64,000 bases of DNA from Tribonema minus (taxonomy: Eukaryota; Sar; Xanthophyceae; Tribonematales; Tribonemataceae): positions 434,001 through 498,000 of the forward strand of contig JAFCMP010000468.1 in NCBI GenBank assembly GCA_017506865.1, written 5' to 3'. The notes beneath the pieces were generated by a model. That model was given only the letters and a program-made list of their open reading frames with translations, did not search any database and was not told the DNA's origin. Position numbers and translations under genes: made by a program. Each line of letters starts with the position of its first letter. Position 1 is the stretch's first letter. Of the stretch, positions 7,101 to 62,888 are shown in pieces.

Positions 7101-10100
7101 ACAGCACCGCCACTGAACGCAATGTTGCATGCCGCTCGCACGCCAACTGACACCAGCCCTCAGGCTCAGCCTGGGCCATTTCGTCTGCGCGCGTGTGCTT
7201 GTACTTCTCATTGCCAATTTCTTGCATGGGGTGCAAAAAGCCCAGATGGTTGATGCCCAGCTTGCAACCGAAATTCACATGTGTCTCGTGAAAACCTGAA
7301 AGCGTCTCAATGCGCAGTGACAACATCACTCCCAACCGACATCGCCAAATCGCATCCCCCCCCCCCCCCCCTCTAAGTCCTCGTGTCCATATGTCCCCCC
7401 CCCGTACCTCAACCCCCCGCGCGTCAGTGCTCACCTTGACGGCCTCGCTGGCGGTGCTGGTGACCCCGTACTTGAAGTCCTGCGCGCGGCGCACGCGGCA
7501 CACAGGGGGGTGGACACTGAGCTTCAAGTTGAAGTTTCACATGAACGGAGGGTCGCTTCGATGCGGTAGCAGCAGGCGCTCTCGCTCGATCGCCGGCCCC
7601 CGCAAGAAATGCGCCAGGTGCGCAGCGGCGGCGCGGCGTCTCTCGCAGGGCGCGCGCAGCGCACTGAAGCCGTCTATGTACTTCCATAACCCTAACTCTA
7701 ACCCTAACCCTAACCCTATCCTTAACATGTGACGCTCCGAGCGCGGCGCTGCCTGCCAGCGGGCCCTCGCGTGCGGCGCTGCCTGCCGGTGACCGGCTTC
7801 GTGCGCGGTGCTGCCTGCCTGTGAGGCGGCGGCGGCGGCGGCGGCGCGGCCCCTGTGCCGGCACCAAGCCGTGCGCGCGGCGACGGAGATCGCGCGCTGC
7901 ATGCAGCTGGGTGTCAACACACTTTGATAGAGTTGTCAGCCGACCACCGGCTAAGCCGGTCAGCTTCGGCTAGCCGGTGTAGCCGGTTAGCCGAGCTGAT
8001 CGATACCCCGGCTTTTTGTCGGCTTTTCTTAAAAAATGCGCAATGGCCAAGAGCAAGCAGGAGCTGCTGGAGTGACTTCAGGCACCCAAGGAGGCGGTTA
8101 GGTGCCTTCCATATGGCAACGGACCATGCAGCCTCTACGATGGTGCCTGCGCTCGTATAGGTATGCTCTGGGGGTGGCTGCCTGAGCAGCGTCGGTACTG
8201 CATCAGCCTTACAGTGTCAGATGAGTGCCAGTTTAGTTAAAACTGAGGCTCGTAAGGAGGCGAGGAGAGTGAAATGATCAACAACAAACGCAGCGGGGCG
8301 CGCCGACACCGTTAAAAGCCGGTCCAATCTCCTAAGCCGACCAAAAGCCAGTGGAAAGCCGACTAATATATCAAGCATCGGCTAGCCGGTGTAGCCGAGC
8401 CGACCGGGACCCCGTTGACGAAAAAGCCGACAAGAGGCATCGGCTGACAACTCTACACTTTGAAGTATCTGAGGTACATGCGTGCTTCGAGCAAGTACTG
8501 TACTTGTTCGCACTGCGAGGCTGCGCATCATTAGGCGCATGTACGTACTGTGAAGTACACGTTTCAAGTGTATATACTATGCTGGTACATGTGTACATAC
8601 ACAAACGAGGCTGCGGGTTGATTGCGAGCGTTGCAGCTCACCCAGCGCGCGCCTCGGGCGTGCCGCTCTGAGGAACACGCCACCGCCAACCATCACATCT
8701 CGGCATCACACCTGACCCGCCACCGAGATGTGGTGTCCTCACGAGACGGCGTATCGCGGTCCATCGATACGCGCGTACATACCTGCCCCGGTATTCTGTG
8801 CCCGCGCGTCTTGGACTTGCCCAGCGCTTCGTCCCTGCTGCTGCGGTACACCGCCTCCGACATGCCCAGCTTCAGCCGCGCCAGGCCGCCCTCTGCGCCC
8901 GGCTGCAGTCAACAAGTGAGTCAAAGGCAAGCAGTGAGTGAGTGGATGAGCAGCTAGGGGGGGAGGGGGGTCGTTCCTGCACTGGACATGCGTGACTTCA
9001 GCCGAGCCAAGCCGCCCTCTACGCCCGGCTGCACAATGCACAATACCCCTATGAGTGACTTGATCAGTGAGTGAGTGAGTGAGTGGGGGGGGGGGGGGGG
9101 CAGGCCGCCAACTGCGCCCGGCTGCAGTCCACAGTGCCCTCAGTGAGCGAATGAGTGAGTGAGCAAGTAAGTATGCGAGCGAGCGAGGGGGTGAGTGCCG
9201 AAGACATGCCCAGCTTCAACCGCGCAACGCCGCCCTCTGCCCTCCAGACTGCCGTGGGCGCGCCACCAAAAAGACCAACCTGAACAGCGTGCGCACCACG
9301 CGGGCATCCACCGTGCCAGCCTATGTGTATGTATGTATGTCGTTGACCGCCTCAGACTTCCCACGGGGGTGGTCTTGGCGACAGCACGCTACCGTGCGAC
9401 GGATCGGAATGTCAGGCACGCAATATGCCCCCCCCCCCCCCCCCCCCTCACAGAGTTGATTGCTGCTGATCAGCCGCACGCGCCACCGGCAGCGGTCCGA
9501 GGGCACAGCTCCCAGCACTGGCACGGCGGCGCTCGCCTGCTTCCGTGCGTCCGGCACACGGCCGCTGCCGCGCAGCGTGTGCACCCTCTCAACGCCGTGC
9601 ATGCATTTCTTGGAGCAAAAGTCACACGCAATGCCACAAGTATACAGATGCTAATGCGGGGGCGGCTGCGCGTTCGCGCCGTCCCGCGCTCGCCTGCTTC
9701 AAACACGCCTGGGACATGGTCGCTGCCGCGAAGCAAGCGCGTGCACCCTCTCAACGTCACGCTCGCGCTTTCTGGAGCAAACGACACATCATCATCGCAT
9801 GAGTCTAATCATGCCGAAGCGGCCGTGCGTCAGCGCTCGCCTGCTTCCAGACGCCCGGCACGCTGGCCGCTGCCGCGCAGCGCGCTCACCCTCTTGACGC
9901 CACGCGCGCATTTTTTGGAGCAAAAGCCACACACGATGACACAGAAGTGTGACGATGCTAGAGCAACTGCGTGTCGCTCGCCTGCTTCCAGACGTCCGGC
10001 ACGTGGTCGCTGCCCTTAACCTTGCACACGCCGTACACGGCCTTGGGGTCGAGGCGCTTGACGTCGTCGCGCAGCCCCGGGTGCTGCAGGCGCTCGCCCG

Positions 10101-13269: not shown

Positions 13270-13786
13270 GTCGCAATGTGGACGTACGTACATACATGGC
13301 TATAATGTGAATGCTGATGACGCTTAGCGCAAGGCGCCGCCGCCCCGCCGCCCGCCTGGTGACCTGTTGCGAAGCGCGCTTCGCAGCAGGAAGCAGCCTT
13401 GATTGTGGACTTAGTGGAACTACTAATTGAATAGAATTTTGAGAAATCTTTGCATGATTATGCTTTTGAAAACATAAATGTACAAAGTCAAAGCTAGCAC
13501 CGCGGGCGGGGCCACGCGCGGAAAGCGGCGGTGGTGCCAAGCAATAAGCCCTAGCCCAAGGGCCGTGCCCTGCTGCTTCTCGCCGTGCAGCCACTGCTGG
13601 TTTCAGCGCCTGCCCCGCCTGCCCCATGCGCATGCACCAGACCGTACACTTGTTGAAGTACATTTGTCGCGGACGCTCGAGTCTTTCGGTCGGCGATGAC
13701 TTGTTGTGGCTGATACTGTGAGAAAAATGACTCAAGTCTTTGTAAAGTATGCAAGTAAATATGATCTCCTGGAACCAATCCTCCCG

Positions 13787-14225
13787 TCTACGCTGACGCC
13801 GGATGGTGCCGCAGACGGCGAGCCATCTTGACAGGCTTTCGTGGTTTCTACTGTGAAGTCATCTTCATACCTAATCTCATACAACGCCTCCCGCCTGGTG
13901 ACTCACAAATGCTTGTACGCGGGCAGGGCCCAAAATGCTATGGACAGCTACAGCCCACACAGCCCTGCCACCTTGTGAACTTCCTGGCACACGTGTGCTG
14001 CAATAATGTATTGAAGCGAGTGAGCGCGCATTCCCTTTTTGTTGATACATCTAGTTTTTTTCAGTTCTTTCCGTCGGCGATGGTGCAGGATGGCGCGGCG
14101 GACGGTGAGCCGCGCGAGGACCCGCAGGCGCTCGCGCAGCAGCTGTTGAAAACTTCTCGACAGGCTTTCGTGGTTTCTACCGTGAAGTCTTGACATCTAA
14201 CCTCATACAATGCCTCCCGTCGGCG
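13787..14225. repeat. Two decayed upstream copies of the ankyrin gene's first exon
   Basis: The first-exon sequence (GATGGCGCCGCGGACGGCGA and following) occurs at about 13800, again at about 14070-14160, and finally as the real exon from 14226. After the first two copies the sequence runs into a shared tail (GACAGGCTTTCGTGGTTTCT) and an ACCTCATACAA block. The middle copy has its own ATG and an intact frame for about 30 codons, so it could act as an alternative start. Confidence 0.75.
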
Positions 14226-17200
14226 ATGACGCAGGATGGCGCCGCGGACGGCGAGCCCCGCGAGGACCCGCAGGCGCTGGCGCAGCAGCTGTTCGACGCG
14301 TGCAGGGACAAGCGCGCGGAGGCCGCGAGGGCGCTGCTCAGCAAAGGAGGGCTGCCGCACCATACTGATGCGCAGACAGGTGCGCGGCGTGACGGCGTGC
14401 CTCAGTCTGACTGTGATTCACTGGCTCTGATTCACTCACGCTGACGCAGCACCGCCAGGGGAGTGCTGCCGCACCACAGTGACGCGGAGGCGGGTGCGCA
14501 GTGTGACTCTCCCCGACTCACTCACTCACTTTGACTCACTCACTCCCGTGGACAAAAGACGACTCGTTGGGGGCGGTGCCATGCACGCGGCGCGCGCACG
14601 TCCCGTGCAGGTTTGCGGCGCCAAAGGCAGCGCTGAGGAGTGTTGCAGTGCCGGTCACATGAGTGCAGAGACCGGGCAGTTTGGGTCGCGATCGGCTCTC
14701 CTGTACTTCAATGTACTTCAACTGTACAGTCCTGGGGGGCACCCGAGACGTCCCGCGCAAGCGCTCGAGATGCTCGCAGGCGCCAGTGGCCGCGTCTGAA
14801 CGCGGCCGCTGGTGCCAACGGCAGCAATAGCTCACTTGCGGGAGGCGCACACTGGGAGGCGTGCAGGCGGGCGGCGGAGCGCTTCTCCCCGGCGCGCCTG
14901 CTCACGCGGCGGGCGGGTTAGGGTTAGGGTTAGGGTTAGGGTTAGGCGGCACGCCGTCTAAAGCGCAGCGGCTTGAGCATCGTGCAGGCGGCGCTGCAAG
15001 TCCGCTCTTGGCGCGCTTAGGGTTAGGGTTAGGGTCGTCCTTAGGGTTAGGGTTAGTGTCGTCCTCGGTGCTTCTCGGCGCCCTCCACTCCTCGCTGTCC
15101 CCAGCGCGCTGTTGCTGCTGAGCTCGCTGCCGCATGGTGCGCACATGCCGTCATGCACGCGATGCCCGCACAGGGCGCGTGCCATCGTCGCCAATCTGCG
15201 GCTAGCGGCTGGACGGCCGAGACCCTCGCCCTAGCATTTTCTGGCAACAAGATCTGCCTTGCGCGTAGAACTACCGGTCTCTGTGAGCGGGCTCCCACAT
15301 GGGAACAATTACCCCTACGCACCAGCGCACATTCTTCAGTGCAACGCCCCTGAGCACTGCTTTGCGCCGTCCCGGGCCCTCTGTGCGCGCACGTCTCGCA
15401 GGGTGGTCGCCCCTGCACTGGGCCATCTTCCACGGCTGCACGGAGCTGGTGAAGGCGCTGCTGGACGGGGGGGCGGCGGAGCCCTACAAGCGAGCGCAGG
15501 TATGTATGTATGGCGGACCTGCTAATCCTAACCCTAGTTGTTGACCTACGTGGCTCTGCTGACCCAGCTGCTGGCTGTTGACGTGCCAGTATGGCAGAGC
15601 TGCTAACCCTACCTCTAGTTGTTGACCTGCGTGAGTTTCCTAACCCTGACTTTACTTGTTGACGTGAGTGGGCGCAGGTATATATGACGAACCTGCCATT
15701 TCTAGCCCTAATTGGCAACCTGCATGTCGCGCGTGTCTCAAGCACACACGCGCCGCGCGACTTCAGATGCACCTCTCATCTGGCCCTCACCCTAATTGTT
15801 GACCTCGATGCGATGCTCGTTCGGTGATTGCAACCAGCACATGCGCCCCTGCTGCCGCTAGACCCGGCTTCGGCAACGAGCGGGATGACTGTGCAGTTGG
15901 CTCATGGTCACAACCAGGTGAAAGGGTGTCCAGGACTCTCTGTGCCATTGCCGCGGTGGCAGCAGAATAGAGTGAGGGTCAGGGTTAGGGTTGAGGCTAG
16001 GGTTAAGGTTAGGGTTGGGATTAGATCCCACCAAAGGAGCACTCCGCCGTGCCTCGCGAGCACTGTGCGAACAGCAACTGGCGTGAGGCTCATGTGCCAT
16101 GTGCCCTGCGGCGGCACAGTCCCCCCTCTACATGTACTGTGGTGTGTGTCTGTATGGTGTGTGTGTGTGGGGGGGGGGGCAGCGGCTGGGAGACGAGCGA
16201 GAAAGCACCTGAGGGACACCAGCTGGCCCTAACCCTAATCCCACCCCTACTCCTGACCCTAACTTAGCCCTGCAAGTGCCCTCGCATGGGAAGCCCATCG
16301 CCTGTACCCTGAACCTGGCTCCCAAACCTGGATCCCAAACCTGGTGGCAATCCCAGCCCTAGTAGCCCTGGCCCCGTGCGGTGTGTTCACCTGCACACTG
16401 TCCCCTATTTTGCTTGTTATGTCAACACGTAGGCGGCCGCAGCGAGGGCCCCCATCGCGCAGGTGCGTGCCGCCAGGGATGGGGGGGGCAGGAGGGGGGT
16501 TGCGGCGGGGGGCGGGGGGGAGGGGGCGAGTCAGCGACCGACCGTTGCCGTCAACTCCCCCCTGCACTGGGCCGCCGCCAGGGGCGACCTGCCCGCTGTG
16601 TGGCTGCTGCTGCAGGTGAGGGCTGCGTGTGATTGAAACGGCGCCTGCAGCACTCATAGCACTGCAATAGTATTGAATTGTGACATCGAGCACTCATAGC
16701 ACTTCAGTGGTATTTAAGAAGCTTACCTGCCCGCTGTGTGGCTTCTGCTGCAGGTGAGGGCTGCATGTGATTTTTTTGGCGCCTACATCAAGCACTCATA
16801 AAACTTCAGTAGTATTTAAGTGCTTGACCTGCCCGCTACGTGGCTGCTACTGCAGGTGAAAGCTGCATGTGATTGCACTGCACCTACATCAAGCACTCAT
16901 AGCACTTCACTAGTATTAGTATTATTTTAAGTGCTCACCTCCCTGCTGTGTGGCTGCTGCTGCAGGCAAGGGGCGCATGTGATTGAATTGCACATGCATC
17001 GAGCACTCATAGCACTTGAGTAGTATTCTAAGTGCTTGCCTCCCCGACGTGTGCCTGCTGCTGCAGGTGAGGGCTGCATGTAAAATGGAATTGAACACAT
17101 CAAGCACTCGCAGTACTTCAGTCGTATCTCAAGTGCTGCCGAGCGGTCTTCAGTACGCGTCGTCAAAAAAACGACGCACCATCACGGCGGTGGCTGTTCT

Positions 17201-20200
17201 GCAGAGGAATAGCTGAGCGCCCTCTGCGGGTGCCGTGCGCTGTCGTGGTCACCCGGCCGCGCTTGTTGCAGCAGTCTGCGCTGCGCCGTGTACGTGCAAA
17301 ACCGCGCCTCGTTGCGCCGGAAGACGCTGTGGCGCGCGCTTGCGCTGTGCGCCAGAGCCTGGTAATAGACACTCTGCAGCGGCGGCGTGGCCGCATGCGT
17401 AGCGCGTCTTCGGCTGTGCTGCTATCACTGGATTCAATCTACAACAGGCTTTTTGTTGTAATCAGGGGCTGGGGTTTGAGTTGCGGCCGTCTGCCCAGCG
17501 CGTCTTCAGCTCTGCATCTGTCGTGGGCTTCTCTGGTTCAGTCGGGTTTCACTTGTGGTCAAGGTTGGGGTGTGAGATAGCATCAGGGTGTGGGTCGCTA
17601 CAGTTGCGCGCGCTGCACTTGGATCTACAACCAGGTTTCCTGATAGTGAGGGCTGCGCGCTGAGTCGCGGCCGCGTGCCCAGCGCTGTCTTCGGCTCTGT
17701 ATCCAACTTGCTTTTTTTGGATCCACCAGCTTTACTTGTGGTGATGGCTGCAGGTTAAGGTGACATCGGGTCACACGCCGCTGACGCGCGCGCTGCCTCC
17801 CCCCGCCCCCCCCTCTTTCCCCCCCGTTGCCTGTGCGCAGGAGGGCTACTCCCCCAACGACGTCGATGCTATGGGCAACACGCCCCTGCACACGGCCGCT
17901 TCAGGGGGCCACCTGGCAGGTACGGAGTGCACGTCGCCCCCAACTACATTCTTGCCTATGTTCCCCATGGCACACAACATGTGCTGTGCGCGCAAAGTTT
18001 TGGAAGCTCTCGTGCACGCGGACGTCCACCACCACAACGATGTATACCTACCCTAATCCTGAAGAGGTTCACATGGCGATGCGCTAAACTTAGGGGATGT
18101 AAAGTCAAGCGCCCAATGTTGAAGTCTATGTGCTGCGTGTGCGACAGTTCTGGAGGCACGCGTGCACTTTTGAGCGGACGGCGACCACAGTGACTTAAAA
18201 ACCACAATGATGCGAACCCCGCCTGCCTTGAAGCAGATGTAAATAAGGCCGCCAATGTTCAAGTTTCTGTGCCGTGCACGCGACAGTCCTGGAGGCGCTC
18301 GTGCACGACGGCGCGGACATCCGCGCTTCAACGGTGCATACCTACCCGCCTTGTAAGAGAAAATGTTTACAAAAACAAGAGCCAATGTTGAGGCTTATGC
18401 GCTGCGCGCGCGACCAGTCCCAGAAGCGCTCGTGCACGTAACTTTTATTAAAAATTTGTACAACAATGACAAATAGGAGATTGAGATAGACAACGCCCAC
18501 TGCTGCTGCCACGCATTGCTCCGCGGCGCGCGTGCAACAGTCCTGGAGGCGCTCGTGCATGACGGCGCGGACGTCCACCTGCGCAACCGCTTCAAGAACA
18601 CGGCCATGGAGGTGGCGACGTGCCCCAAGTGCAGGGCAGTGCTCAGGTGAGGCGCCGACCGTGACCTCGACTCTGCTGCTGTCACCGCTGGTGACCCCCC
18701 CCCCCCTGCCCTCCCAAAAGAAAAAGAAAATCAGGCGTGCGCATGTACAAGCGCCTTCTTGAACGCTTGAAGCTCTCTACTTCTATTTCCGACTGCCGCA
18801 AACTGCTCCGTCAGTTTCGACACGGCCATGCGGGGGCTGAACGAATGGCATCACGCCGCTGAGGAATATTGTATGCAGCACGCCGCCGCAATCTGACATG
18901 CACAGCGCTCCGCACCGCAACTAGCACTGTCCGCAGCGACGCGGCAGCGGGGTCCCCTGCGCCGCTAGCTTTGTGCGACACTTGAACGACGCTGCTGCCA
19001 CCACAACTGATTATTTCTCCATTGTGGTATTTGTCTGCGGACACGTCGAGGCGCGCGTTCGCTGCCGCCACTTTTGAAGCGCTCCCGAGCGCCGCGCAAA
19101 AATCCCAAGTATTTGTACTTTTTCGCCGCAGCACCAACAAGCCTCGAGTGCTCACTTCACCTTGCGCAAACATTGCCAAATGCACAGTTTCAGTGCAGTG
19201 CGAGTACGCGCAAATGTTCATTTTGCCGCGCGTGAGCATCACTGCCTGCTCAGCGAGATGTCATACTTCAACTGCCGGTGGGAACAACGTGCACGCTAGT
19301 AGGAAAGCAAGGCATCGCTAGTCTTTCCTTGAAGCCCTTTGGTATTGCGTATGACACAGCGTGGTGCCACAACCCAGGCCTGCACTCACAGTTTGCAGCT
19401 CTAATGTAACCCTCTTTATTTCTGCAACTTCAAATTGAACTGTGCAGGGAGGCATCGCTCAGGTCTGCCCCCGGTCCGGAGCAGCAGGCCAAGATGCACG
19501 CCGCCAACATGCACCACCTCACCGCAGCGGAGACGGCCCTGCGGGAGGCGCTGCAGAGGCGAGCACTGCTGCCGGAGCGTCACAACTTGAACTTGTGCAT
19601 TTCATGCTTGCCGTGCGGCGCGCCTATGAATGGTGTTTCTGAGCAATATGGTGCAGAGTGGTGTGTATGAACAGTGCTGCAGCGGGCGGCGGACGCAGCT
19701 GCAAAGCCTCAAACTGTCACCGTGTTAGTGTTTACGCGAAGAGCGTCTTCTAGAGGTGCAGTCACGCAGAGGCAACTCACTTGGCGCCCGCTATCAAGGA
19801 ACGTATTCAGCGAGAATAGTGAGTAGCAGCACCACGTGTGGCGACAACAAGTCTGCTCCTTGCGCATTTTCTAAGCACCTGCTGGCAGCCAACAGCAGTC
19901 TATCGCTCATTCAGTTCATCGCAGTCTATCGCACTTCCGCTCTGCAGTACTCAGCAATCCGGTACCAACTTCTGCACATGTTTCAGCGGGTGCTCGCACA
20001 TTTGCAAATCCTGCAACGGCGCCACTGCTCCCGTGGCACCTGCACACGTCGTCGAAAGACATCGCCGCGCAACAGTTGAAGTGCGGCAGTTAAAGTGCGG
20101 CCACCTTGAAGTTCTCACTTTGTCGACTGTGGCACTCGTTGTGTCTGCAGAGCGTCCATCGGTGGCGGCGCAATGCGCAGCAGCAGCAGCGCCGGCGCCC

Positions 20201-23200
20201 TTCCCCCAATAGACTCGGCACAGGACGCAAGGGACGACGCAGCAGCAGCAGCAGCAGCAGCGGCAGCAGCAGCGGACCCCCCTCTGCCTGGCTCAGAGCC
20301 AGCGGGGGGGCAACTGGCTCGGCAGGTGCAAACCGCCCAAATACACGTCTGCATGAAGTGGCTTGACTACGAGTCACCATGTACTTCTAAGAAAAATCAC
20401 GCTTTTGAAAGCAACAATTGAAATGAAATTAATCAATGTAGATTTTCAAAAAACTTCGAAGTATCTGTACGAAAGCATTTTATAATGAAAATCCATCAAA
20501 ATTATCTACAGAATGCTGTGATTTCTGTTGTATGAACAAATCAAATTTCACTCTGTTCACTCTTTCACAATAATAATTATTTGTAATATCACATAAAACC
20601 TCACTGTCTTTATAAATAAACTACTTCGAAGTATATGTTTACAAAATTAAAATTTTCTGCATTAAATTCTGTAAATTTATCAAACTATCCACTGAATGCT
20701 GTGGTTTCTGTTAATCAGACAAATTGAATAGAAGTGTTGTTTAAAAACCGCATAATATAACGTACAACCGCACTGTCGAGCTATGTGCTCCGGAGTCACA
20801 CTACAGATACGCACATGTTTGCGCAGCAGCGTGAATTGAGAGTATTGCGCTGTGGCATGTGGGGCCGCTTGCGTAGGAAATGTGTCTGCTGAAGCCACCA
20901 TGCCCCTGGCCCGGGGGCGGTCCAGGGCGTGAGATGGGGGGAGGTAGCTGGCAGCGCTGCTTTTGTCGTACTGCTCCTGCTGCGCACCAAAGCGTACAGT
21001 GTATACACCTCACTATCGCAGCACGCGTACGGCACCGAGCCTTGCATGAGCTCGCGGCCATCCTTTATTGACATGCTGCTCGCCCCGTGCGCGCGGCGCT
21101 CTTCAAGACCAGCTTGAGACACCCGCCTTGCGCCGCCGCGATGGGCGTCAGCAGCGCTCAACAAGAGAATGCTCAGCAGCAAACTGGGGGTCTCCTGTGG
21201 AGCGTTGATGTTGTTGCAGCCGGCTGAGTGCTTGTTGGGCCAGCGCCGCGCAGCCAGCAGCAGCAGTGACCCACCAATGGACAACGTACAAAAGCGTGCG
21301 CTTGCAATTGGCGCACTGCTGCTGTCCGCAGCATTGGCTCACTGCGCCTGTTATCGTAGCGAAAGTGTAGCTGTACACCATGCTAATAACTGGAGACCTG
21401 CGCTGGCTTGTGCACTGTTGCAGGCTGCCGACATCGAGGCGGCCATGGCGGAAGTGGCAGCACTCGGCTTGTGCCACGACCTCGTTGCGGAAGCCAAGGA
21501 AAGGTCAGCTGCAGCCTGAACTTGAAGTATGCTAGGGTTGAATTATTTTTTCAGTGTGCACTCCAGCAGAAGCAATGCATCACAGGCCGTACTGGTCGTG
21601 ACCTGATGTTACATACATTCGTAGTACCGCACTTCATGTATATCGTTGAAGTAGCAGCGCTTGGCTTGTGCCACGACCTTGTGGCCGAGCCAATGACAGA
21701 TCAGCTCTCCTGTCAAGTCCGTGTATGCAAGAGCTACTTCAGAACTTGGAATGTCAGCAAGGCCACAAGACCTGTCCCTCGGTCTCTCTACGCGCCGCCT
21801 CTTTTGCGGCCACTGCCATGTGGCACTGACCCGCATGGCGCTGCTAATGCCCTACCTAATTCTGACCCTAACCCTAACCTTAACTTCAGCTTGAACCCCT
21901 CCGTGGTCTCAAAGCGTAGACCCAACTAACCCTAGCACTCCCTGTCATCTGGGCCCTGGCCACCATGATCCAATGCTGACGCGCATTTTGCCGCGCCGCC
22001 TGTTCCGCGTGCAGGGTAGCGTGCCTGAGGCTGCAGGAGCACCTCGAGCTGCAGGTGAGCGCGCGGCACTGACTGGGAGTAGGGTATGTATCACATTCAG
22101 GGACGCGTATTAGGGTGTGAAGTCGGGGCGCGCTCCGCGTGCGTGTTCCTGCGCGCCGGCGGTGTGTGTGGCCCGGCTGTGTCGGGGGGGAGGGGCGCGC
22201 AGACAGCAGCGCTCCTTGGGTGTGTCAACGCCTGGCCATCGCGCCCAAGCTGCACGCGCGCGCGCCCTTTCGATGCGAAGTCACGATCTGCTGGGCTGGG
22301 GCGAGCACACGTGTCACCACCGGAGTACAATGAGAAATGCGTAGGCTACGTGACCAGCCACACGCATCTGATTGGAGGCAACTACATACCCCCTGCGTAC
22401 CCACGCCAGGTGGAGAGGGTGCGCGCCGCGAAGCCCGCCGTGAGGCAGACGACGTACGCGGCGCTGCTCATTGTTGCGTAATTACATCCCTACCTACCTG
22501 CACCAGCATAGGACATCAAACATGCATACCTTACATACCCACACCAGGTGGAGAGGGTGCGCGCCGCGGAGCCCGTCGTGACGCAGACGGCGTACGCGGT
22601 GCTGGTCATGTTGCATAATCACACCCGTAGCTATCTACCTCAGCTGAAAAAATAAGTGCATACGCCCTACGGACACGCCAGGTGGACAGGGTGCGCGCCG
22701 CAGAGCCTGTTGTGACGCAGACGGCATACGCGGCGTTTGTCACGTGCATGCTTCGCATCTCTACCTACCTACCCGGGCAGAAAAAAATGAACAACAATGC
22801 ATACCCTACATACCCACACCAGGTGGAGAGGGTGCGCGCCGCGGAGCCCGTGGTGACACAGACCGCGTACGCGGCACTGGTCAACCGCCTGTCGGCGCTG
22901 CTCGCGCGCGCCGCCGGCGGCAGCGCGGTGCCCGCCGCGCTCACGGAGCGCGCCAGCGGGCTCGTGGAGAAGTCGTTCAGGTGTTTTTCCAGCGCTGAAT
23001 TTCAAGGGTTGTTGAAATTGAAGTTCAAAGATGCGCTTCAAGATCAGAAACTGTGGATGGGCGGTGATGCAGCACCGCGGCGCTCACGGACCGCGCTAGC
23101 GGCCTTTCGGAAAAGTCATGGAGGTGAGCGCTCAGCGTTGAAATTGAAGTTTGATGGTTTGCTTTGAAGTTGAGAACCTGGAACGGGCGGCGTCCGGCGC

Positions 23201-26200
23201 GCTCACGGAGTGGGCCAGCGGCCCTGTGGACAAGGCCTTCGGGCGTGCTCGCCGCCGGGGAGTACGCCTCCGACCCAACGAGGCGAAAAAACTACAGTGC
23301 ACTCCATGATGCAGTGAACGCCGTGCTGTGAATGAGTCAGGCGGAGAAGTTAGGTGCGTGCCCAGACAGTGCACCCCTGAACTCTGTACTTCACATTGAA
23401 GTTCAGAAGGACCCACCCCGAGGGAAGGGAAGCTGGGTATTTTACTGGTTTTTTTTTGTTGTGCGGCATTTGAGTTACCACATTATGCAGCCCTGGTGCG
23501 TGACGCTTTGTGCTGTCATGCAGCTAATACAAGTGCTATCGGTGGAAGGCATTTAATTTGACGGCTAACCACACCTTGTCACCTAGAGCTCTACGATCTT
23601 TGAATGCGTTCCCACAAGTGCCAGTGGATTTAAAGGCAATACATTGCTGTAGGCAAAAGTGTTGCACGCGGAAGACGGTTTGGGTGATCCCTTTCACACC
23701 CTGGGTATCAGCCAGCACACAAGTCTGACACGCACATGGCACAGGCAGCAGTTCGCGCACTCCATGTCCACAGTGATTGTCAGCGCCAAACTGAAACCTC
23801 CAACTACGTGCCCTACCTAGGCGTAGGCAATGCGCTGCCTGGGACTTGGCACCGGTGCAGACTTCTTTCTGACGTTGTTCTGTGCATGGTGCCAAGGGGT
23901 ATTCTGTGCATGGTGCTAGGGGCACTGCTGCGCCTCGGCGCCCCTCCCCTTTACAACTGCTTCCCCATTGATTGCAGCGCCTCTGACACGCACGTTCCAC
24001 GCGCCTCTCTGATGATGCTCCGTCGCAGTTGATGAGCACTGTTGCGCATCGACGGTGCCCCCCCCCCCCCACTTCACACCTGCTCCTCCATCGGCTGCAG
24101 CGCCTCTGACTCTCTCTACCTATGCCCTTGCCTGTTGGTGCTGCGCCGCAGTGAGTACTGGCTCCAGGTAGCCACCCAGCACCTCAAAGACGTGGAGTGC
24201 GCCGATGAACAGGTGCGTGTGTACACCGTAACTGTAACTGTAACTGTAAATGTACCTGTGACCGTAACGCAGCCGTGACCCCCAAGCCCTGATGTGCACT
24301 GCAACTGTAGCCGTGACCACCGTAACTGCAGCCCAAGCCCTGACGTCACCCCCCCCCCAGCAGCAGCTGAGCAGACATCAGCTGAGAGCATGTTTGCACT
24401 GGCAGACATGGGCGAGCCCAGATTTTTTCTTGGTCCGCGGCAGTAAAGCGCATGTGAGGCCGCACCGTACCCGGCCGTCAGATGATGTCTGGCGTGCGTT
24501 CAACTAGCCCTTACCCTTAACCTGAGAGTCGACACACCATAGGCACGAGAGGCCCGCCCCATTGACTTTGTCGCTGTGCACAGCACCCGCGCCGCCCGCC
24601 GGCGGGCTCTCACAGTGCCCTCGCGTGAACAGGACTGAGATAACGCTTGATGCCTTCGCCCTCAATTCATGCCTGTTGACAATTTAACCCTCCGCACGCA
24701 CGCACATCCAGTGTCATGGTGACAACAGTTCCCCGTCACTGGCCGTTATAACTAACAGATACAATGCCCTGCGCGCTGCTCTCCGCAGCTCGTGCGCGAC
24801 GTGTTTAAGCTGGACGGCGCCATTCACGGCTCATGCCCACTGATGATTTCACCCTCCCCGCGCACGCACCCAGCATGACAGTGCCCGCTCACTGGCCGCC
24901 GTAACTGACAGCGAAACTGCCCTTGGTGAAAAACGTGTTGCTCTCCACAGCACGTGCGTGACGTGTCCAAGCTGGACGGCGCCATTCAGAAGGCGCGCGC
25001 GTGCCGCGCCTACGCGCCCCTCGTGGAGGGCTCCGCGGCCGTGCATGCGCGCCTGCTGGCGGAGCTCGAGGTACTCAATGTTGGCTTTTTAATGCCTTTC
25101 AGCGTGGAAGTATTCACTTAATGCAGCATATTGTTACCTGGGGGGGGTGTTAGGCTCTGAAGTACGTGTTGAGAAGGCGCGCGCGCGTGCCGCGCCTTCG
25201 CGCCCCTCGTGGAGGGCTCCGCGGCCGTGCACGCGCGTCTGCTGGCAGAGCTCGAGGTATCGAATGCCGGTTCTTTTCCAGAAGTTAGTCTGCCGATTCT
25301 CCCCTTGTTCAGCATATGGCTGTTCACTCACATGACGAGTCACATCATATGGCTGTTCACTCACCTGGTAACTGAAGAGTATCTTGTCCATTCAGCGAGC
25401 GTGTGTGTGTGTGTGTTGTACCTATCCCCCCCCCTCCTCCTCCCTCCCTTCGTAGAGCTCTGCGGCTGTCGATACCTGAGCTTGAGGTAGCACACAATGC
25501 CTCCTTCTGTGCTTTCACGCGACAATGCATTCACTTGAGTAGCTGGCAATTTAGCATGAATGGCGGCACTTGTTTTGGCATTTCTACCGTGGCAAAGGGC
25601 GAGACGGCAGCTGGCCGTGTGAACGCGCGCACGCAGTCAAATTTTAAGCAGCTCGACCAGCTGCAGGAGCAACGTGTGTGTACGCCCAGGTGTTGCCTAT
25701 GCAATTGCACTGCATATATATGCATGCGGAACGATGCGACTGCACGTATCTCAGTGCCTGTTCCGCAGTGCCTACCGAGGTGCATGCAATTGTACTGACG
25801 ACACCTGGACGTATGTACATGTGCGTACTGCAACGATATGCGCGCTCAGTGCTGCTAAACTTCAACTTCATACATCAACCTTCCACTTCAACTCCAGGTT
25901 CGCAAAGCGACGGCGGACATACCCTTCCGAGGTGCACACAATTGTACCGACAACACCTGAACATACATGTGTCCGTACTACATTTCATGCGCGCTCAGTG
26001 CTGCCGTACCTCAACCTCATACTCCAACTCATACTTCAACTCTTAATTCACCTTGTACTTCAACTCATACTTCAACTCCACGCGCGCAGGTCCGCAGAGC
26101 GACCGCGGACATACCCGTCGCGCGACTCCCTCCGGTCGTGGAGGCTGGGGCGAAGCCCCCTAAGGACTGGTGGCAGCTGGAGGACATGGGACGCGTGCAG

Positions 26201-28174
26201 GAGACGGAGGGCTTTCCCCTTCCGCCAAAGTGAGCAGCGGCGGCGGGGCTGCAGTGCTCTCAGCACCGTGGCCACGCTCGCACTCGATGCTTGTTTGATT
26301 TGAACTCATCTGGAGGACATGGGCCGCGTGCAGGAGACCGAGGGCTTCCCTCTTCCGCCAAAGTGAGCAGCGGCGCCGGGGCTGCAGTGCTCAGTGCTGT
26401 GGCCACGCTCGCACTCGATGGTCGCTTGCAGGCTGACCAGGTTCAAATGATTAAGAATTCTTTTGATTTGAACTCATCTGGAGGACATGGGGCGCGTGCA
26501 GGAGACGGAGGGCTTTCCGCTTCCGCCAAAGTGAGCAGCGGCGGCAGAAGAGCTGCAATGCTCAGCGCTGTGGCCGTGCTTGCAGGCGATGCTCGTGGGC
26601 ATGCTGACCAGATCGAACTAATTAAAGACGCTCGACAAGTCAGATAAATCAACAACTCATGCTGATCAGATTCAACTACTTCGAAGTAGTAATAATCTTC
26701 CCAGTTAAACCCGTTAGATGAATCATCCTAATACTCTCCACCGGTGCCTTTGTCGGCATCAGCTCGAATATACACTTGAAAGATTTTGGTACTTGAAGTA
26801 AGCGTGCTTGCAGTATTCAAATCTCTGCCGTAATTTTTGAATTATTTTTAATACAAGCAGAGGTTTCAATACTCAAAGTACATTGAAAGTCAGGCCTGAA
26901 TGGAGGCCAGCAATCTGGCGCATCATCGACAACAAATTGCAGCAGCAGCTTCGGCTGCGCCGCATTCCCTCTCGTTTATGCATTAGCCGTGCTGTACGCC
27001 CAGCCTTGCCGGCCTGCCCTCCGGTGTGTATGCCATGATGCCATCTGCGAACTTTGCAAGAACTGCGCACTTCAAAGTACTTAAGAAATACGCCAATCTT
27101 GAAGTTTCCCAATGGCCCAAGTGACTGACGGCGGCAGCACCGGAAGATGTGGGACGCATGCAGCGATCTGCAGGCCCTGTAATTTTATACGATCATCAGC
27201 GCTGCCTACTTCAAGCGGGTGACGTTCACGCCCCCATGCGCTGATCGATGCTGCAGGAACGAGGACGGCAGCGACGCGGACTACGTGTGGGTCCCCGCGC
27301 CGGCGCTGCAGAAGCTGCGAGCCGCGCACGGCAGGCTCGAGCTCGCCGTGCAGGCGGGGCACGCCGCGGCGGCAAACGAGGCGCTGCTGGCGCAGGTAAT
27401 GTGTGCAATCCGTGAGGATTGACCATGAAGCACCAATTTGCACGTGGAATTGGTCTATGTGGTTTGCTGAACTCTGACAACGGAAGCACAGAAGAGGCTG
27501 TCAGTTGAAAGGGCAGGTGCACCCGCATCGGCAACAGAAGTGTCGCTGGCGTGTTCAGCACGGTTGATGTGGTGGTCGTTCACACAATGGTGCGGGCGCA
27601 GGGTGTTCTGGCCGCCAGCGCCGGTAAGAGGGCGCTGCCAGCTGCAGTGCGCATGGCAGGCGCGAGCGGCAGCATGTGTGAGGCGGGGGCACCGCTCAAG
27701 CGGGACATGCACAACGCCACTGCGGCCATGCTCAGCACCTGTCGCTGCATGCGGGCGCTTGTGACCCGAAAAACCACGCTCAAAAAGCGTCCTGTGTGCT
27801 TTTTATTGATTCTCGTTCACATGGGGCGCAAAAAAGCCCAGATGGTAAATGTCCAGCTTGCAACCGGAATGTACATGCACTGAACCGGTCGCGACTGCGC
27901 CTGAAGCACAACGGATAAAGTGCACATTTATGAGACACGTGCCGTGCAGGTCGACATTGTCGTGTTCTGCTCATCATTTTGAGCCGCGCTGCTGGCACTG
28001 TGGTAACTGCAGGCGGCGGTAAAGCTTGCGGCCGCGGGGAAGGACCTGAAGGTGCTGCACGCGAAGGACGCCGAGGACCGCGACAAGCTGGTCGGCGCTG
28101 CCGTCAAAGCCGCCAAGAAGCTGCGCAAGGGCACCAAAAAGGCTGGCGGCAAGAAGGGGGGGAAGGGGAAGTGA
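14226..28174 (+). CDS. Ankyrin-repeat, coiled-coil, Lys-rich-tail protein (15 exons, 567 aa)
   Basis: Exons: 14226-14379, 15402-15499, 16535-16615, 17841-17919, 18541-18646, 19448-19558, 20151-20325, 21424-21503, 22015-22054, 22823-22980, 24152-24212, 24951-25070, 26090-26229, 27257-27395, 28013-28174. Every junction phase agrees and the sum is 568 codons with the stop. Residues about 20-175 hold four ankyrin repeats: SPLHWAIFHGCTELVKALL, SPLHWAAARGDLPAVWLLL, TPLHTAASGGH and LEALVHDGADVHLRN. Exon 7 adds a Ser/Ala-rich linker with an 11-Ala run. The rest is helical and charged, with a WWQLEDMGRVQ segment, and ends in KKAGGKKGGKGK. The donor after 19558 is GC. Many exons are accompanied by decayed copies of their own junctions. 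The exact orthologue is not recognised; ankyrin repeats imply protein binding. Confidence 0.85.
14918..15056. repeat. Interstitial TTAGGG arrays in ankyrin-gene intron 1
   Basis: Five tandem GGTTAG-type units at 14918-14946 and two shorter blocks at 15018-15056 separated by GTCGTCC. Further degenerate units follow at about 15520-15625 and 15715, and in intron 2 at 15973-16022 and 16224-16263. Confidence 0.85.
16590..17150. repeat. Tandem copies of exon-3 donor junction (about five)
   Basis: The end of exon 3 with its donor (coding LPAVWLLLQ then GTGAGGGCTGC) recurs at about 16730, 16830, 16940 and 17040, spaced about 100-140 bp. Each copy is followed by a shared block GAGCACTCATAGCACTTCAG. 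Only the first, 16535-16615, joins in phase to its neighbours. The later copies still keep a CTGCTGCAG|GTGAGG-like donor, so they could compete for splicing. Confidence 0.85.
17390..17745. repeat. Tandem intronic repeat, ~110-bp unit, about four copies
   Basis: Units contain the words GCGTCTTCGGCTGTGCTGCT, CTACAACAGG and GGGGCTGGGG. They lie in intron 3 of the ankyrin gene between the exon-3 donor copies and exon 4. I see no matching exon, so the source junction may have been lost. Confidence 0.7.
17995..18540. repeat. Four decayed copies of exon 5 start ahead of the real exon
   Basis: The acceptor and exon start (CGACAG|TCCTGGAGGCGCTCGTGCA, coding LEALVH) occurs at about 17998, 18148, 18285 and 18418, then as the real exon at 18541. 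Spacing is about 120-150 bp. Each decayed copy shares a CCAATGTTGAAGTCTATG-like block before its AG. Most copies soon hit stops, but the copy near 18285 stays close to the real sequence for about 14 codons. Confidence 0.85.
20390..20775. repeat. AT-rich island with two diverged tandem copies
   Basis: A sharply AT-rich block within ankyrin-gene intron 7, unlike the GC-rich surroundings. Two diverged copies of about 90 bp (near 20450-20540 and 20625-20730) share CTTCGAAGTAT and GAATGCTGTG(A/G)TTTCTGTT. TTCGAA palindromes recur elsewhere in the window (1513, 26688). No coding frame. It could be an old AT-rich mobile element or an attachment or replication-related region. Confidence 0.55.
21443..21715. 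repeat. Partial duplication of exon 8
   Basis: The exon-8 segment coding EVAALGLCHDLVAE is present in the real exon (21424-21503) and again at about 21645-21700, where it keeps the frame for 14 codons and then diverges. The second copy has no clear acceptor. Confidence 0.8.
22402..22980. repeat. Exon 10 preceded by three near-copies (four in total)
   Basis: The acceptor and exon start coding VERVRAA(E/K)P occurs at 22411, about 22550, about 22680 and 22823, at 130-145-bp spacing. Each copy is introduced by a CATACC...CACGCCAG or CACACCAG acceptor. All four keep an open frame for 19-23 codons. Only the fourth continues to the NRLSALLARAAGG part and to a donor. The exon's far end (coding LTERASGLVEKS) is also copied at about 23075 and 23200. 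Confidence 0.88.
23536..23790 (-). pseudogene. Cys-rich repeat-encoded fragment, family unknown
   Basis: The minus strand reads a Cys/His-rich stretch (words CACQTCVLADTQG and KDRRALGDKVWLAVKLNA). A second, shorter copy of its last 26 codons lies at about 32662-32740 in a NECAP intron, where it reads RALGDKV, a stop, then KLNAF. A protein-level repeat in two introns points to a mobile element fragment. Family not identified. Confidence 0.45.
24789..25260. repeat. Exon 12 with a partial copy on each side
   Basis: A 5' partial copy at about 24789-24830 (coding LVRDVFKLDGAIH) precedes the real exon 24951-25070. A 3' partial copy at 25171-25257 (coding YAPLVEGS-like then ARLLAELE with a GTATCG donor) follows it. 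The three copies overlap in sequence only partly, as expected from successive unequal duplications. Confidence 0.8.
25668..25832. mobile_element. Imperfect foldback element related to that at 62366
   Basis: The left end TGTGTACGCCCAGGTGTTG and the right end ACGACACCTGGACGTATGTA form an imperfect inverted repeat of about 40 bp, with ATGCAATTGCA matching further in. A further end-like word (GACAACACCTGAACATACAT) lies at about 25948. The CCTGGTGTTG core matches the arms of the foldback at 62366-62499, so these look like older members of one family. Confidence 0.5.
26150..26540. repeat. Exon 13 end plus two tandem copies
   Basis: The segment coding LEDMGRVQETEGFPLPPK with its AA|GTGAGCAGCGGCG donor appears in the real exon (ending 26229) and again at about 26311-26366 and 26474-26535. 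All three keep the frame and an identical donor. Only the first has the acceptor side. Confidence 0.88.
27793..27885 (+). repeat. Dispersed ~130-bp repeat, copy B (partial)
   Basis: Shares GCAAAAAAGCCCAGATGG and CCAGCTTGCAACCG with copy A at 7195. The 3' part seen in copies A, C and D is missing. It lies in the last intron of the ankyrin gene. Confidence 0.65.
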
Positions 28175-29895: not shown

Positions 29896-32800
29896 ATGTC
29901 CACCCCGGCTGCGGCAGCTGACAAATCCCCCAGCGCAGCAACAACAACAGAAATTCCTGCAGCAGCACCAGCGGAGAAGCAGGATTCGGCAGCAGAGCAG
30001 GCAGACTCAGGCGATGGGGATGGCGAGCCGTCCCGCGTGGAGGTGCCTCTGCTGTATATCAAGGAGGTGTTTGTTTACAGGGTTCCGCCTGCCAAGGCTG
30101 CTTCTGGGCACAGGGCGGAGGAGTGGGGGCTGGAGAATCCTGCACTGACGGGCTTCATGAGGATCTCGCAGCTGGACGACCAGTGAGTGCGGTGCAGTGC
30201 ACTGCCTTTCAACTGACGCAAGCTGTCTGTTGTAATGCTGACCATTTTTGCCCTTAAGAATTCCAACTTTTTAGCTCAAGCGTCGGTTCTGTGATTACCA
30301 GGAGGAGGCTTCATCGCATGCACACGGGACACACGGCTGTCACATTTGCAAGAAGACAGTCAATCAACCAACGCAAGGCGCAGCAGGAGCGTGATCAACC
30401 TCAATGCGCAACATGAATTTGTGCGCTGCAACGGCGGCAGCACCATAAAATCCCGCATGACAACGAAGCTATCCCCTCGTGCGTTGTCAACATTCTGCCG
30501 TGTTGCTGAGTGTGCTAAGCATACGCAACCGAGCACAGGTCAACCCTCCGAGTGCGTTCGTGGCACTAGCCCTCTGACAGCATAGCTGAAGTCCACCCGA
30601 GTCCACTTGAGTACTCATGTGGACTTTACGTCAATGCGCGGCAGCACACCATCACCGCCACGGAAGTCGTGGCAGGCGGGTATAGGGAGGACGTCAAAGC
30701 TGCAGCTGCAGCCACACCGATGCACGACGCAAATTTACGAGGGCTTGTGTCCAGCAGCTTTCAACGCTTTGGGTTGGTGCTCGTTGCCATCGCTGCCGCT
30801 CGCGGAGCCAATATTGATGCGGTGACTAAGATGCGCTGACAGTGTAGTTTACTAGGATGTGCGGGAAGCTGCAGCACTCTTGCCCATCCGTCAACTACAG
30901 ATTGTTGAACTGACTGGCGCAGTTGTATTACGCGGTTTAATCTGTGCTGATCCGCGCGGCGTGCTGCCGCATCGTGCTTGCTGCTGCTATTGCTGCTGCC
31001 GCGGCGGCCATGCTTCGCGCTGCAGATCACTGGTGACGCTGGCCCTGACGCTAAAGGAGGCAGGAGCGGAATATGCTGTTCGCTGGTCGCACCCCATACT
31101 CCATCACATTAGAAAAATGAAACATCGTTCGCCGCGATGTTCAAGGGGTCGCTGAATTGCCCGTCGCCGCCGCTCACGCTTCAACCCCCCCCCCCCCCCC
31201 CCCTGCAGGTGCCTGGTGAAGATGTTTGTGCCGCCCAAGGAGGGCGACCTGGGGGCGGCCGCGCAGCTGTTTGCCACGTGCTGCATACGCGTGGGCGGGG
31301 GGCGCTTCCTGCAGCACTTTGTGGAGCACGTCATGGACTCCAGCCGCTACTTTGTGCTGCGGTGCGAGGTGAGCCCCTCGCGGCCGTCACGCCATTGCCA
31401 CGCAGCATGGCCGCATTCGCTGTAGGCCCGTTGATTACGGCGCACGCGTCGGGACGGCCATTACGCATTGCTACGCAACATAGCCGCAACCGCTGTAGGC
31501 CCGGTAATTTACGGCGCATGCGTCCCTACGCGCAACGTTTCGTCGCGCACGCGCATGCGGCTGCGCATGCCGCGCCTCGCAGGCACCGGCGCTGACGCTG
31601 CCCTGAGATCGATGCACTCATGTGGCACTGCCGCTGAATTGGCTGAATTACCATTCCCACTTCATGCACTTGTTGTACAAAATTTACATTGTATGGCCGT
31701 GGACCTCAATGAACATATGATCTGCTCCAATCAGTAACTCCAGTCAGTAGCTTGGCGCTGCGAGCAAAGGGGGCGCGGAGAGGCGTCCACTTTCACACGG
31801 GTACTACCGTGTACTACAGCTTGGGAATTTACATACAGTCGATTTCGCAGGCTTTGACGCAACTGAGACTTGTCATCATCTGCCCCCGCGGCGCGTGCGT
31901 TACAAAGAGTCTTGTGGTTCCTTATGACGGCGAGCCGTCTTGCGAAGGTGCCGCTTTAACCCATTGCGGGCGCGAACTTACGCGGGGTGATTGAGATAAG
32001 CGTTATTTATTCGTCGACATGAGTATACCCACTTGCATTGCCGCGCCCCAGCTACGAAAATGCAGCGCTCATCCCCGCCGCGCTACCTACCGTATGCCCT
32101 TCGCACAGGACCAGGCGGGGTCGGGGCGCGTGGCGTACGTGGGCGTGGGCTTCCGGGAGCGGAGCACTGCCTTTGACTTCAAGGCCGCCCTGGACGACTA
32201 CGTCAGGTACTGAACACTCACAAATTTAAGGGCATCATGCGTCAACTCTTGCGGTTTACAGTGATTCGATCAGCTGGCTGTGCCTCGCTTGCGGAATGTC
32301 ATACGGCCTTGAAGAGGGTCGCGTGACAGAAGGCGAAAGCAGCCCCATGTAGCCTGACTACGGCAGGTATCATGATGACATGGAAATAATGCACTGAGTC
32401 CTACGATTTACAGTGGTTCGATGAGCTGGCTGTGCTGAATATCCACAGAAATAATGCGCCGACTCGTGACTCACAGTGCTTCGATGAGCTTGCTGTGATG
32501 ATTCGATGAGCTTGCTGACTTCAAGGTCGCCCTGACCGGGTACTGAATAAACACAATGTGAAGCTATAAAGCTTGCACACACAAGCCCTTTGACTGCTGT
32601 GGATATGGTGGCACTGTCTGACTCGTGGCCAACTGCCGCAGCAGCGGCGACCCCGAGTATTGGAGGAAGGCATTTAATTTTATGGGTAACTACACCTTGT
32701 CACCTAGAGCTCTACAATCTTCTAATTCGTTTCCATGAAGAGTATAGTGCGCCAAGCCGTACGTTTTACAGCGCTACAATTTACGGTGACTCGACGGGCT

Positions 32801-38954: not shown

Positions 38955-40503
38955 ATGTTCGCCATCGCTTCTCTACTCCTTGCTGCCGCGGTGACCGTCA
39001 ACGCCTGGCCGGGAGACCATGTCCTGGGCCAGCCTTTCTGCATCAAGCTCTACAACGACGTCGGCGACAACTGCTACTGGACGGTGAGTGCGAACACGAA
39101 CATCTTAGCAAAGAGTGTCGCGCGCTGCTCGAGCGAACAGATTTGTTCAGCGGACCGTTGCGTGCGGTCGAAAGCGCAACGGCTGCTGCGCGTGACAGCT
39201 GTAGGATTCGGTGCTCTGTGAATCACCTCTTGTACTGCCGAATGAAGTGCCACCTGATAAGTAATCTGCCAAGCCATATCTTTGCTGTTACTGCGAAGCC
39301 ATATCTTTGCTGTTACTGCGCGGGACACCGATAAAAGTGACCGCACAATGTCATGCAACCAGACGGCGAGCTGAAGCACGCGTCTCTACTAGCACGTGCG
39401 CACTGCAGATTCAACTGTCTCATCAGTTCAAGCGCTGTTGCTGGCACGTGTGCAAGCTCGTTGAGCTCGGGGCACTGGTGGCAGACATGCCGCATAATGT
39501 CATGTCCAGTTCCTTCTGTACTACCATAAAGAGTATTGTGATGTTTTGAATCACAGGAATACATTGTACATCCGGCCTACTCTGCAGCCTTCCTTACATA
39601 AACATGTTGCGCGCCAAAGAGTCCGTAACGCAGCATCCAGTACGACTAGTGTCAATGCAATGCATCTTGATACCTGATACGACACAAGTCGACGTGATCA
39701 CGGTGTCGCGCAGTGCACTGGCATGTTTCATGATGATAATTGTACAGGATCTGGTATCAAGATGTGGTAGGCATCCACAGTCAGGTATGCATATGCGCTA
39801 TATTGACAACACATGGCCGCAGAGTTGTACCTCAAGTACATGCTAAGTCACTGCTAAGAGCTCCATGCTTTTGATGCACCTCATAACAGCGACTCGGACT
39901 GGCAGGCCCTGCAGTCACTGACACGTGTACATATTATGTGCACATGTTCTTGATGACTCACTGACACTGGATGCTCAGCTGAATGATGCGCGCACTGTAG
40001 CAGCGCCCACTGGCAGGGACGTCACTGATTCTCACTATCACATGATAATGCTGCATTCATCATCAACACTGGACCCATCACCAACTTCAATTTATTGAAT
40101 GACATGACTCACCTTTGACCCACCGCCCCTTGCCATCACGGCTGCGCGCATTTGCGTGGTTGAAGTCCTCTCACAGGGTACCTTCCAGCTGAGCGGCGTG
40201 CCCTCCGAGTCAGCGCTCAGGGACATCATCAGCAGCCCCTTCACGGGCGTGCTTAAGCTGGACGACGGCACCGACACGGAGACCGTCTACGGTGCCGTCT
40301 CCTACAGCCCCCCCACCAATGACTTCGAGCTGACGTTAAGCATCATCGACCCCTTCGGCCGCATCGAGATCGACTTCGACAACCTCGCGATCGGCACCAA
40401 CGACCAGGCGGTGGACGGCCTGGAGCAGTGGTCGCTGCAGACGGACCTCGACACCAACGCCGCCAACGAGCTCCTGTGCTCCGCCACCATCGTGGAGTGT
40501 TAG
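38955..40503 (+). CDS. Small secreted protein, unknown family (2 exons, 151 aa)
   Basis: Exon 1 is 38955-39083 (43 codons) and exon 2 is 40177-40503, joined in phase 0 across a 1,093-bp GT-AG intron. Exon 1 starts with a clear signal peptide (MFAIASLLLAAAVTVNA, cleavage likely after VNA) followed by WPGDHVLGQPFC. The mature part is acidic, rich in Asp, Thr and Ser, with alternating hydrophobic stretches (FELTLSIIDPFGRIEIDFD) that suggest a beta-sheet fold. It has four Cys, two near each end (PFC, DNC; LLC, VEC-stop), which would allow two disulfides. No family recognised. A near-identical second copy of exon 2 lies inverted at 63062-63388, so this is a multicopy gene. Confidence 0.82.
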
Positions 40504-40689
40504 AAAGCGGGGCAGCCCACGACGGGCGCGCCGCGCTGCATGCACCTGCAACGGCTGCACCATCATCGGTGACTGATGCTGCATCATGGTACTACTAGTA
40601 CAGGCGTGTGCACTGCGATTCCGCAGCCCCCAGAATATACACGCGTGACTGTCACAGCTCCCATCCACCTGTGCAGCTGCTGCGACTGC
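39659..40689. repeat. Segmental inverted duplication, arm A
   Basis: Covers the later part of the intron, exon 2 and about 185 bp of 3' flank of the secreted-protein gene. Matches 62889-64000 in inverted orientation, with scattered substitutions and short indels. The partner runs off the window, so the true length is greater. The introns match nearly as well as the exon, so the copying was at DNA level rather than by retroposition. Confidence 0.9.
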
Positions 40690-40934
40690 CTTTCAAAAAC
40701 AGTACTGCGCCTTTAAGCTCCGCACACTCGTAGCATACCTGCCAGTGCTTGCCAGCTGCGGATGCACTCTGCGCGACCACAGATTTACAGGGTGCTTGCT
40801 GGCCTCAATGTTACACCATTCATGTAACTTCAAGATGGCAACACCGCCTGCATATTTTTAGAAAACACACACATCATTCAAACCCGACCTGAGGCTGTAC
40901 TGTTGCGATTTAATCGACAACCTCTTACCAAGTA

Positions 40935-62499: not shown

Positions 62500-62888
62500 G
62501 AAGCACCAGGTTGCATGTGGTATCATAGGGCTGTGCTTCATTTAAGGCCATCACAACAGTTACTGTCCACGCTGATGTGCCGCAATGATCATGCCTATTC
62601 GTAAGCGGTTGTGAAATTATATCGCAATAGTACAGCCTCAGGCCGTGAATCTGTCATATTGAATCATGCTGAGCATGTATGTTCTGAAACCATCATGCAA
62701 GTTGAAGCGGTGTTGCCACCTAAGGCTCAGCTTATATGGATGAATATGGTGTGACTCACGGAGGCCGGCAACTTGAAGCGTCACCCCCCCTGTAAATCTG
62801 TGATCGGACGGAGTGCATCCGAGAGTCTGCAACTGGCAAGCAGGTATGCTACGACTGTGCGTAACTTAAAAGGGGCGGAAGGCAGACC

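Follow-up and report, generated by a model that had tools for sequence, protein, structure and literature searches.

Earlier work reportedly traced human introns to tandem arrays. Several described systems come close to the pattern examined here. The AGGT tandem-duplication model makes introns and, by its geometry, leaves an exon-end copy at the other splice site of the intron (PMC3443670). Introners spread by self-copying into numerous genes (PMC9860276), and in Tetrahymena leucine-rich repeat (LRR) genes with 90-bp exons, unequal exchange multiplies whole exons, which are retained in the gene (PMC6564038). We analyzed a window of 64,000 nucleotides from Tribonema minus (contig JAFCMP010000468.1, positions 434,001 to 498,000; G000:C468:434001-498000 in our numbering; genome of 158 Mb in 554 contigs), in which exon edges of an ankyrin-repeat gene recur as "decoys" within the neighbouring introns. 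Ordinary head-to-tail tandem duplications that cross splice junctions probably lengthen introns and leave look-alike splice sites behind.

The locus resembles the system of PMC4974935 in that duplication is local and head-to-tail, involves splice sites and leaves the protein unchanged. It differs in that duplication adds no intron: its unit spans an edge already present and lengthens the intron there, and the decoy edges keep their own intron flank. With introners it shares a genome-wide occurrence centred on introns, but each array searched is private to its locus and copies exon ends of the gene that holds it (PMC9860276). Like the Tetrahymena LRR genes it shows intragenic duplication of exon and intron sequence; what is copied here, however, is the end of an exon, and most of these copies could not be read (PMC6564038). 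Among the literature matches listed, we recognized none, by title or opening of the abstract, that presents duplication across splice junctions as a way for introns to grow, which does not show its absence from print.

Exon edges of the ankyrin gene recur in its introns

The ankyrin-repeat gene occupies 14226-28174 on the plus strand. We modelled it by hand from the sequence as 16 exons that read in phase: 14226-14379, 15402-15499, 16433-16462 and 16535-16615 (exons 1-4); 17841-17919, 18541-18646, 19448-19558 and 20151-20325 (exons 5-8); 21424-21503, 22015-22054, 22823-22980 and 24152-24212 (exons 9-12); and 24951-25070, 26090-26229, 27257-27395 and 28013-28174 (exons 13-16). Every acceptor is AG and every donor GT, with the sole exception of a GC donor at exon 7 (19558). 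When exon 14 ends at 26229, the frame continues into exons 15 and 16. Ankyrin homologues were found as weak matches.

For each edge, the terminal 45 bp of the exon was aligned with the adjoining intron by the Smith-Waterman method at a cut-off score of 36, with the reversed intron as control. Self-comparison and aligned copies showed that a donor edge and its adjoining intron recur one to four times downstream of exons 4, 9, 11, 13 and 14, that an acceptor edge recurs upstream of exons 6, 11, 13 and 14, and that exon 1 has both start-side and donor-side copies. The initial annotation had listed such copies at exons that it numbered 1, 3, 5, 8, 10, 12 and 13, which are exons 1, 4, 6, 9, 11, 13 and 14 of our model. 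We saw copies at all of them, on the named side wherever one was given, and additionally at the exon-11 donor and the exon-14 acceptor.

The longest series belongs to the exon-4 donor (16587-17137), where the true edge at 16615 is followed by four decoy edges at 16753, 16855, 16965 and 17066. The exon-14 donor array (26174-26625) has its true edge at 26229 and decoys at 26362 and 26530, and the exon-11 donor array (22925-23246) has its true edge at 22980 and decoys at 23123 and 23242. On the acceptor side, three decoy edges (22410, 22548 and 22682) precede the true edge of exon 11 at 22823 (array 22385-22883), and one (25898) precedes that of exon 14 at 26090 (25771-26090). The exon-6 acceptor array (18001-18576, true edge 18541) contains copies at 18001-18030, 18150-18186 and 18287-18322, which score 37, 34 and 64, so that the second falls below the cut-off. 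Exon 13 has one copy on each side, with an edge at 24789 upstream of the acceptor at 24951 (24667-24988) and one at 25256 downstream of the donor at 25070 (24985-25259). Single copies also follow the donors of exon 9 (edge 21503, copy 21648-21706; 21451-21706) and exon 1 (copy 14460-14507, score 40; 14346-14507). The exon-1 start array (13776-14293) holds partial copies at 13776-13824 and 14071-14147, both of which precede the true start at 14226. Consecutive placed edges are 101-254 bp apart. An intron-only repeat begins 8 bp beyond the exon-2 donor.

Interstitial runs of the TTAGGG/TAACCC type were also present at 14915-14946, 15016-15065, 15508-15666, 15975-16024 and 7687-7726, several of them intronic.

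Exon-edge copies occur across the genome

Together with edges of kinesin genes from elsewhere in the genome, the edge test detected an exon-end copy in the adjoining intron at 28 of 94 edges and at 0 of 94 reversed controls. The ankyrin gene contributed 10 of 28 edges (of its 30 internal edges, the two at the 72-bp intron 3 left too little sequence for testing), and the kinesin genes 18 of 66, in 9 of the 25 loci with a tested edge. We used 58 of 132 kinesin matches, namely those within retrieved loci; their edges were chosen automatically near the ends of hidden Markov model (HMM) matches and some are perhaps a few bases off. Two HMM matches that are themselves decoys (L048 1041 and L052 1908) were excluded from the edge list.

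These two decoys, L048 1041-1109 and L052 1908-2039, score as separate exons under the Pfam kinesin model; automatic gene prediction in the Tribonema minus genome may therefore include decoys.

Tandem repeats cover 25% of the stretch from 13.5 to 28.2 kb, compared with 0 in a first-order Markov control. Within the window, coverage was 0.195 and 0.253 over two genes and 0-0.026 past 28.2 kb. Eight arbitrarily placed 8-kb loci, in which exons are unmapped, gave 0.042, 0.179, 0.341, 0.244, 0.381, 0.033, 0 and 0.124; coverage was thus at least 10% in five of the eight, and their first-order Markov controls gave 0. Thirty kinase loci entered only the repeat-coverage and repeat-pair tables. The genome also holds 92 light-harvesting-family exon matches, and ciliary genes are present; together these very likely mark a flagellated alga. 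The kinesin and arbitrary loci bear out the proposal that the pattern is genome-wide and not confined to this locus. Exon-end copies were found in 18 of 34 mapped introns, so the further claim that "most introns" carry arrays is too strong. Introns with exon-end copies were longer (median 978 bp, n = 18) than those without (622 bp, n = 16; P = 0.014), part of which is expected because longer introns give copies more room.

The exon-proximal copy is the coding one

The true exon is the first copy at donors and the last at acceptors, an order that would follow from the geometry of junction-crossing duplication. A codon-position test was applied to the 14 arrays with at least two decoys, two exon-6 copies being added by hand. 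Substitutions that set the true copy apart from all its decoys numbered 0:0:11 at codon positions 1:2:3, whereas those private to decoys numbered 34:34:51 (12:13:24 in the ankyrin gene alone). The latter distribution is not significantly uneven (chi-square ~4.9 by hand, P ~0.09), and third codon positions are 91% G+C, which may alone raise the third-position count. The contrast between 0:0:11 and 34:34:51 indicates that the in-phase copy is the coding one, in agreement with the initial annotation. The true exon is thus under constraint, and its decoys seem to drift freely.

The condition of the decoys was assessed in 50 real-decoy pairs at 25 edges; 5 of 55 exon-half matches (score of at least 38) were omitted, as their edge could not be placed within 6 bp. 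Decoy spacing was divisible by three in 17 of the 50, which is the chance level, an extension free of stops was found in seven, and both in four. GT was kept in 21 of 27 donor decoys and AG in 20 of 23 acceptor decoys, and the combined retention of 41/50 is near the neutral-decay expectation by a hand estimate. Over the 25 arrays, the true exon and its decoys diverged by 0.128 across exon halves and by 0.313 across intron halves. When neutral decay was simulated with a single copy conserved and no insertions or deletions (indels), the corresponding values were 0.106-0.148 and 0.195-0.271: the exon-half divergence fits the simulation, and the intron-half value is somewhat above it.

Probable tandem duplication across splice junctions and its alternatives

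In the explanation that we favour, head-to-tail tandem duplications of ~75-250 bp would arise across genic DNA of this genome. One that runs from exon into intron, or the reverse, would leave an intact exon plus an extra unit of exon end and intron start inside the intron, and the protein would be unaltered provided that the splicing machinery stays with the exon-proximal site. Such events would be tolerated, would recur and would lengthen introns. As the true copy is under purifying selection and the extras decay, junction-crossing duplications should remain recognizable for longer than intron-only ones. The arrays, their spread to other genes, the order of the copies, the constraint on the true copy and the lack of a usable frame in most decoys are observed, whereas we infer that the decoys are passed over in splicing, that new copies repeatedly descend from the conserved exon end, and what causes duplication at the molecular level. 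Among eight untruncated repeat pairs of at least 93% identity, four were exactly head-to-tail (length/offset 0.97-1.02), which is the local arrangement that the AGGT model also features; the other four were spaced or non-adjacent members. Intron templates were often matched as well (126/573). The initial annotation had read the pattern as intron growth by exon-junction duplication. The greater length of copy-bearing introns supports the growth, but a process specific to junctions is mostly unneeded, because intron templates within 400 bp of an exon were matched nearly as often as exon ends. Nor are the ends of the arrays set by exon edges, since the duplications cross edges with varying shares of exon.

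Several observations weigh against this account. Between decoys, all 13 arrays compared showed less divergence in the exon half (0.159) than in the intron half (0.300), whereas the simulated decoy-decoy ratio of exon to intron divergence was 0.95-0.98 (no indels); by reasoning, repeated birth from a conserved true copy could give ratios down to ~0.5. Raw real-decoy mismatches numbered 36:41:109 by codon position overall. In the ankyrin gene they numbered ~8:10:51 (hand sum), leaning further to third positions than the ~1:1:2 predicted for neutral decoys beside a true copy that can change only at third positions. Arrays that contain an exon edge made up 23 of 32, compared with 0.354, 0.491 and 0.440 of detected arrays in simulations of uniform duplication that allow for visibility, with one, two and four events per intron (P = 3e-5, 0.008 and 0.001). 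The kinesin genes alone gave 13/17 (P = 0.0007, 0.021 and 0.007) and the ankyrin gene alone 10/15 (P = 0.014, 0.135 and 0.066). This excess over the expected 0.354-0.491, together with the low decoy-decoy divergence of exon halves, suits a rival in which exon ends are favoured: a conserved end would seed repeated duplication through unequal exchange or slippage involving the true copy and its decoys, so that arrays nucleate and persist at junctions. That rival is a serious contender, if rather less than evenly probable. The mean gap between array and edge was 29 bp, compared with 115 bp under random placement in introns, a null that bars edge crossing and so overstates the difference. Exon-masked repeat coverage was 0.27-0.31 at 25-300 bp from an edge, 0.19 in the first 25 bp, 0.15 beyond 400 bp and 0.09 beyond 600 bp, with intron length as a confounder, and decoys close to the true copy had less diverged intron halves (P = 0.025), a trend that was not significant for exon halves (P = 0.19). 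However, the match rate of intron templates was nearly flat to 400 bp (0.21-0.29) before falling to 0.13 (paired P = 0.056); templates within 400 bp of an exon matched in 111/460 (24%) and exon ends in 20/58 (34%). Circular shifts of coverage gave P = 0.27, 0.11 and 0.04 for edge zones of 100, 150 and 200 bp. BLAST pairs spanned an edge by 8 bp at 5 of 30 ankyrin edges (shift mean 6.5, P = 0.79), a null result that in our view arises because alignments often end where the diverged intron half starts; elsewhere, the same test gave 6/8 at C516 (P = 0.026) and 3/5 at L048 (P = 0.19). Our conclusion is that special targeting is unnecessary for most of the pattern; a modest extra edge bias is likely but unproven. 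A stronger version is doubtful, though worth stating: exon ends might be conserved seeds that re-copy into the neighbouring intron, so that introns ratchet longer from their edges and near-perfect decoy sites are left behind, with selection preserving the true copy and thereby its ability to pair and re-copy.

Selection on the decoys themselves, as functional alternative exon parts that serve as tandem alternative splice sites or mutually exclusive exons, could account for the slower divergence of exon-derived halves, for the GT/AG retained in 41/50 and for the lean to third positions of real-decoy differences in the ankyrin gene. We consider it unlikely: the decoy-private substitutions are not significantly uneven where third positions are 91% G+C, and only 4/50 decoys keep the frame without a stop. 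Likewise, tandem exon duplication would give whole in-frame copies, and what we found among these 50 pairs were exon ends. It is less probable still that these introns are transposable elements, introners included, or that Rogers-type tandem duplication of exonic AGGT gave rise to them, even though the arrays are spread across the genome and local duplications resemble tandem genomic duplication. When three stretches were searched against the genome, with very common words skipped, no similar intron sequence appeared at many loci: the exon-4 and exon-14 donor arrays each gave one match, themselves, and the exon-1 stretch additionally matched only 0.9 kb upstream. Because the two arrays match only themselves, transposition appears unlikely. 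The decoys also bring their own flanking intron. The placed exon-end copies sit within introns and not at the opposite splice site, where the AGGT model expects a repeat of the preceding exon's end; decoy donor edges lie, for example, at 26362 and 26530 vs the acceptor at 27257, and at 21699 vs the acceptor at 22015. Taken together, these results contradict an introner or AGGT origin for the arrays examined. Least credible of all is an assembly artefact. Tandem repeats are a classic assembly problem, but most copies differ (decoy-decoy exon halves by 0-25%, intron halves by 3-61%), and all 11 changes specific to the true copy lie at third codon positions, a pattern that assembly error would not yield.

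Other genes of the window

Scans against Pfam and PDB helped to place exons in EFHB and NECAP and a single exon of vasohibin, but no others. The EFHB gene, on the minus strand, matches CFAP21/EFHB chains (best E 9.7e-07, others weaker). Of six EFHB positions previously listed as having copies, four proved to be donors with downstream exon-end copies: 1160 (773-1210; copies 1051-1088 and 773-808), 2871 and 2248 (both within 2110-2905; copies 2651-2685 and 2110-2142, respectively) and 9982 (9530-10014; copies 9826-9872, 9687-9725 and 9530-9567, found with a template that ends at 9968 and includes the 9982 edge). The other two, 4447 and 8783, showed no exon-end copies when tested as donors. BLAST pairs nearby (4513-4550/4663-4700 and 8859-9240) are read as putative acceptor-side copies of those exons. 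GC donors are apparently in use at EFHB 2248 and 9982, as at ankyrin exon 7.

Copies had also been proposed at the junctions of NECAP exon 3 and vasohibin exon 4. In NECAP (PF07933, plus strand), the two-copy tandem repeat at 31381-31524 is entirely intronic and begins ~12 bp past the donor. The only vasohibin exon that we could place (~54919-55035) has a donor without a copy (best score 17 vs 15-20 in controls); the proposed exon 4 came without coordinates to match.

On the minus strand, a single open frame spans 41020-46542 (1841 codons); its match to reverse transcriptase is weak (PF00078, E 9e-07, 29.2 bits vs a cut-off of 29.6), and it is probably a retroelement. Tandem-repeat coverage across 41-47 kb is 0. 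Two further minus-strand stretches, 40339-40692 and 62869-63225, encode similar peptides and may be repeats of a gene fragment or of the end of an element.

Significance for intron growth and splice-site choice

The arrays reveal a visible, datable way for introns to grow that calls for no transposon, and codon pattern by itself is enough to distinguish the true exon from its copies. They also provide a natural test of splice-site choice, with 41 of 50 decoys retaining GT or AG next to a nearly perfect end of an exon. Yet the exon-proximal site must win, that is, the first donor and the last acceptor, which is predicted by exon definition and not by first-acceptor scanning. If exon ends do act as seeds, the exon-definition machinery of Tribonema minus would have to ignore many near-perfect decoy splice sites.

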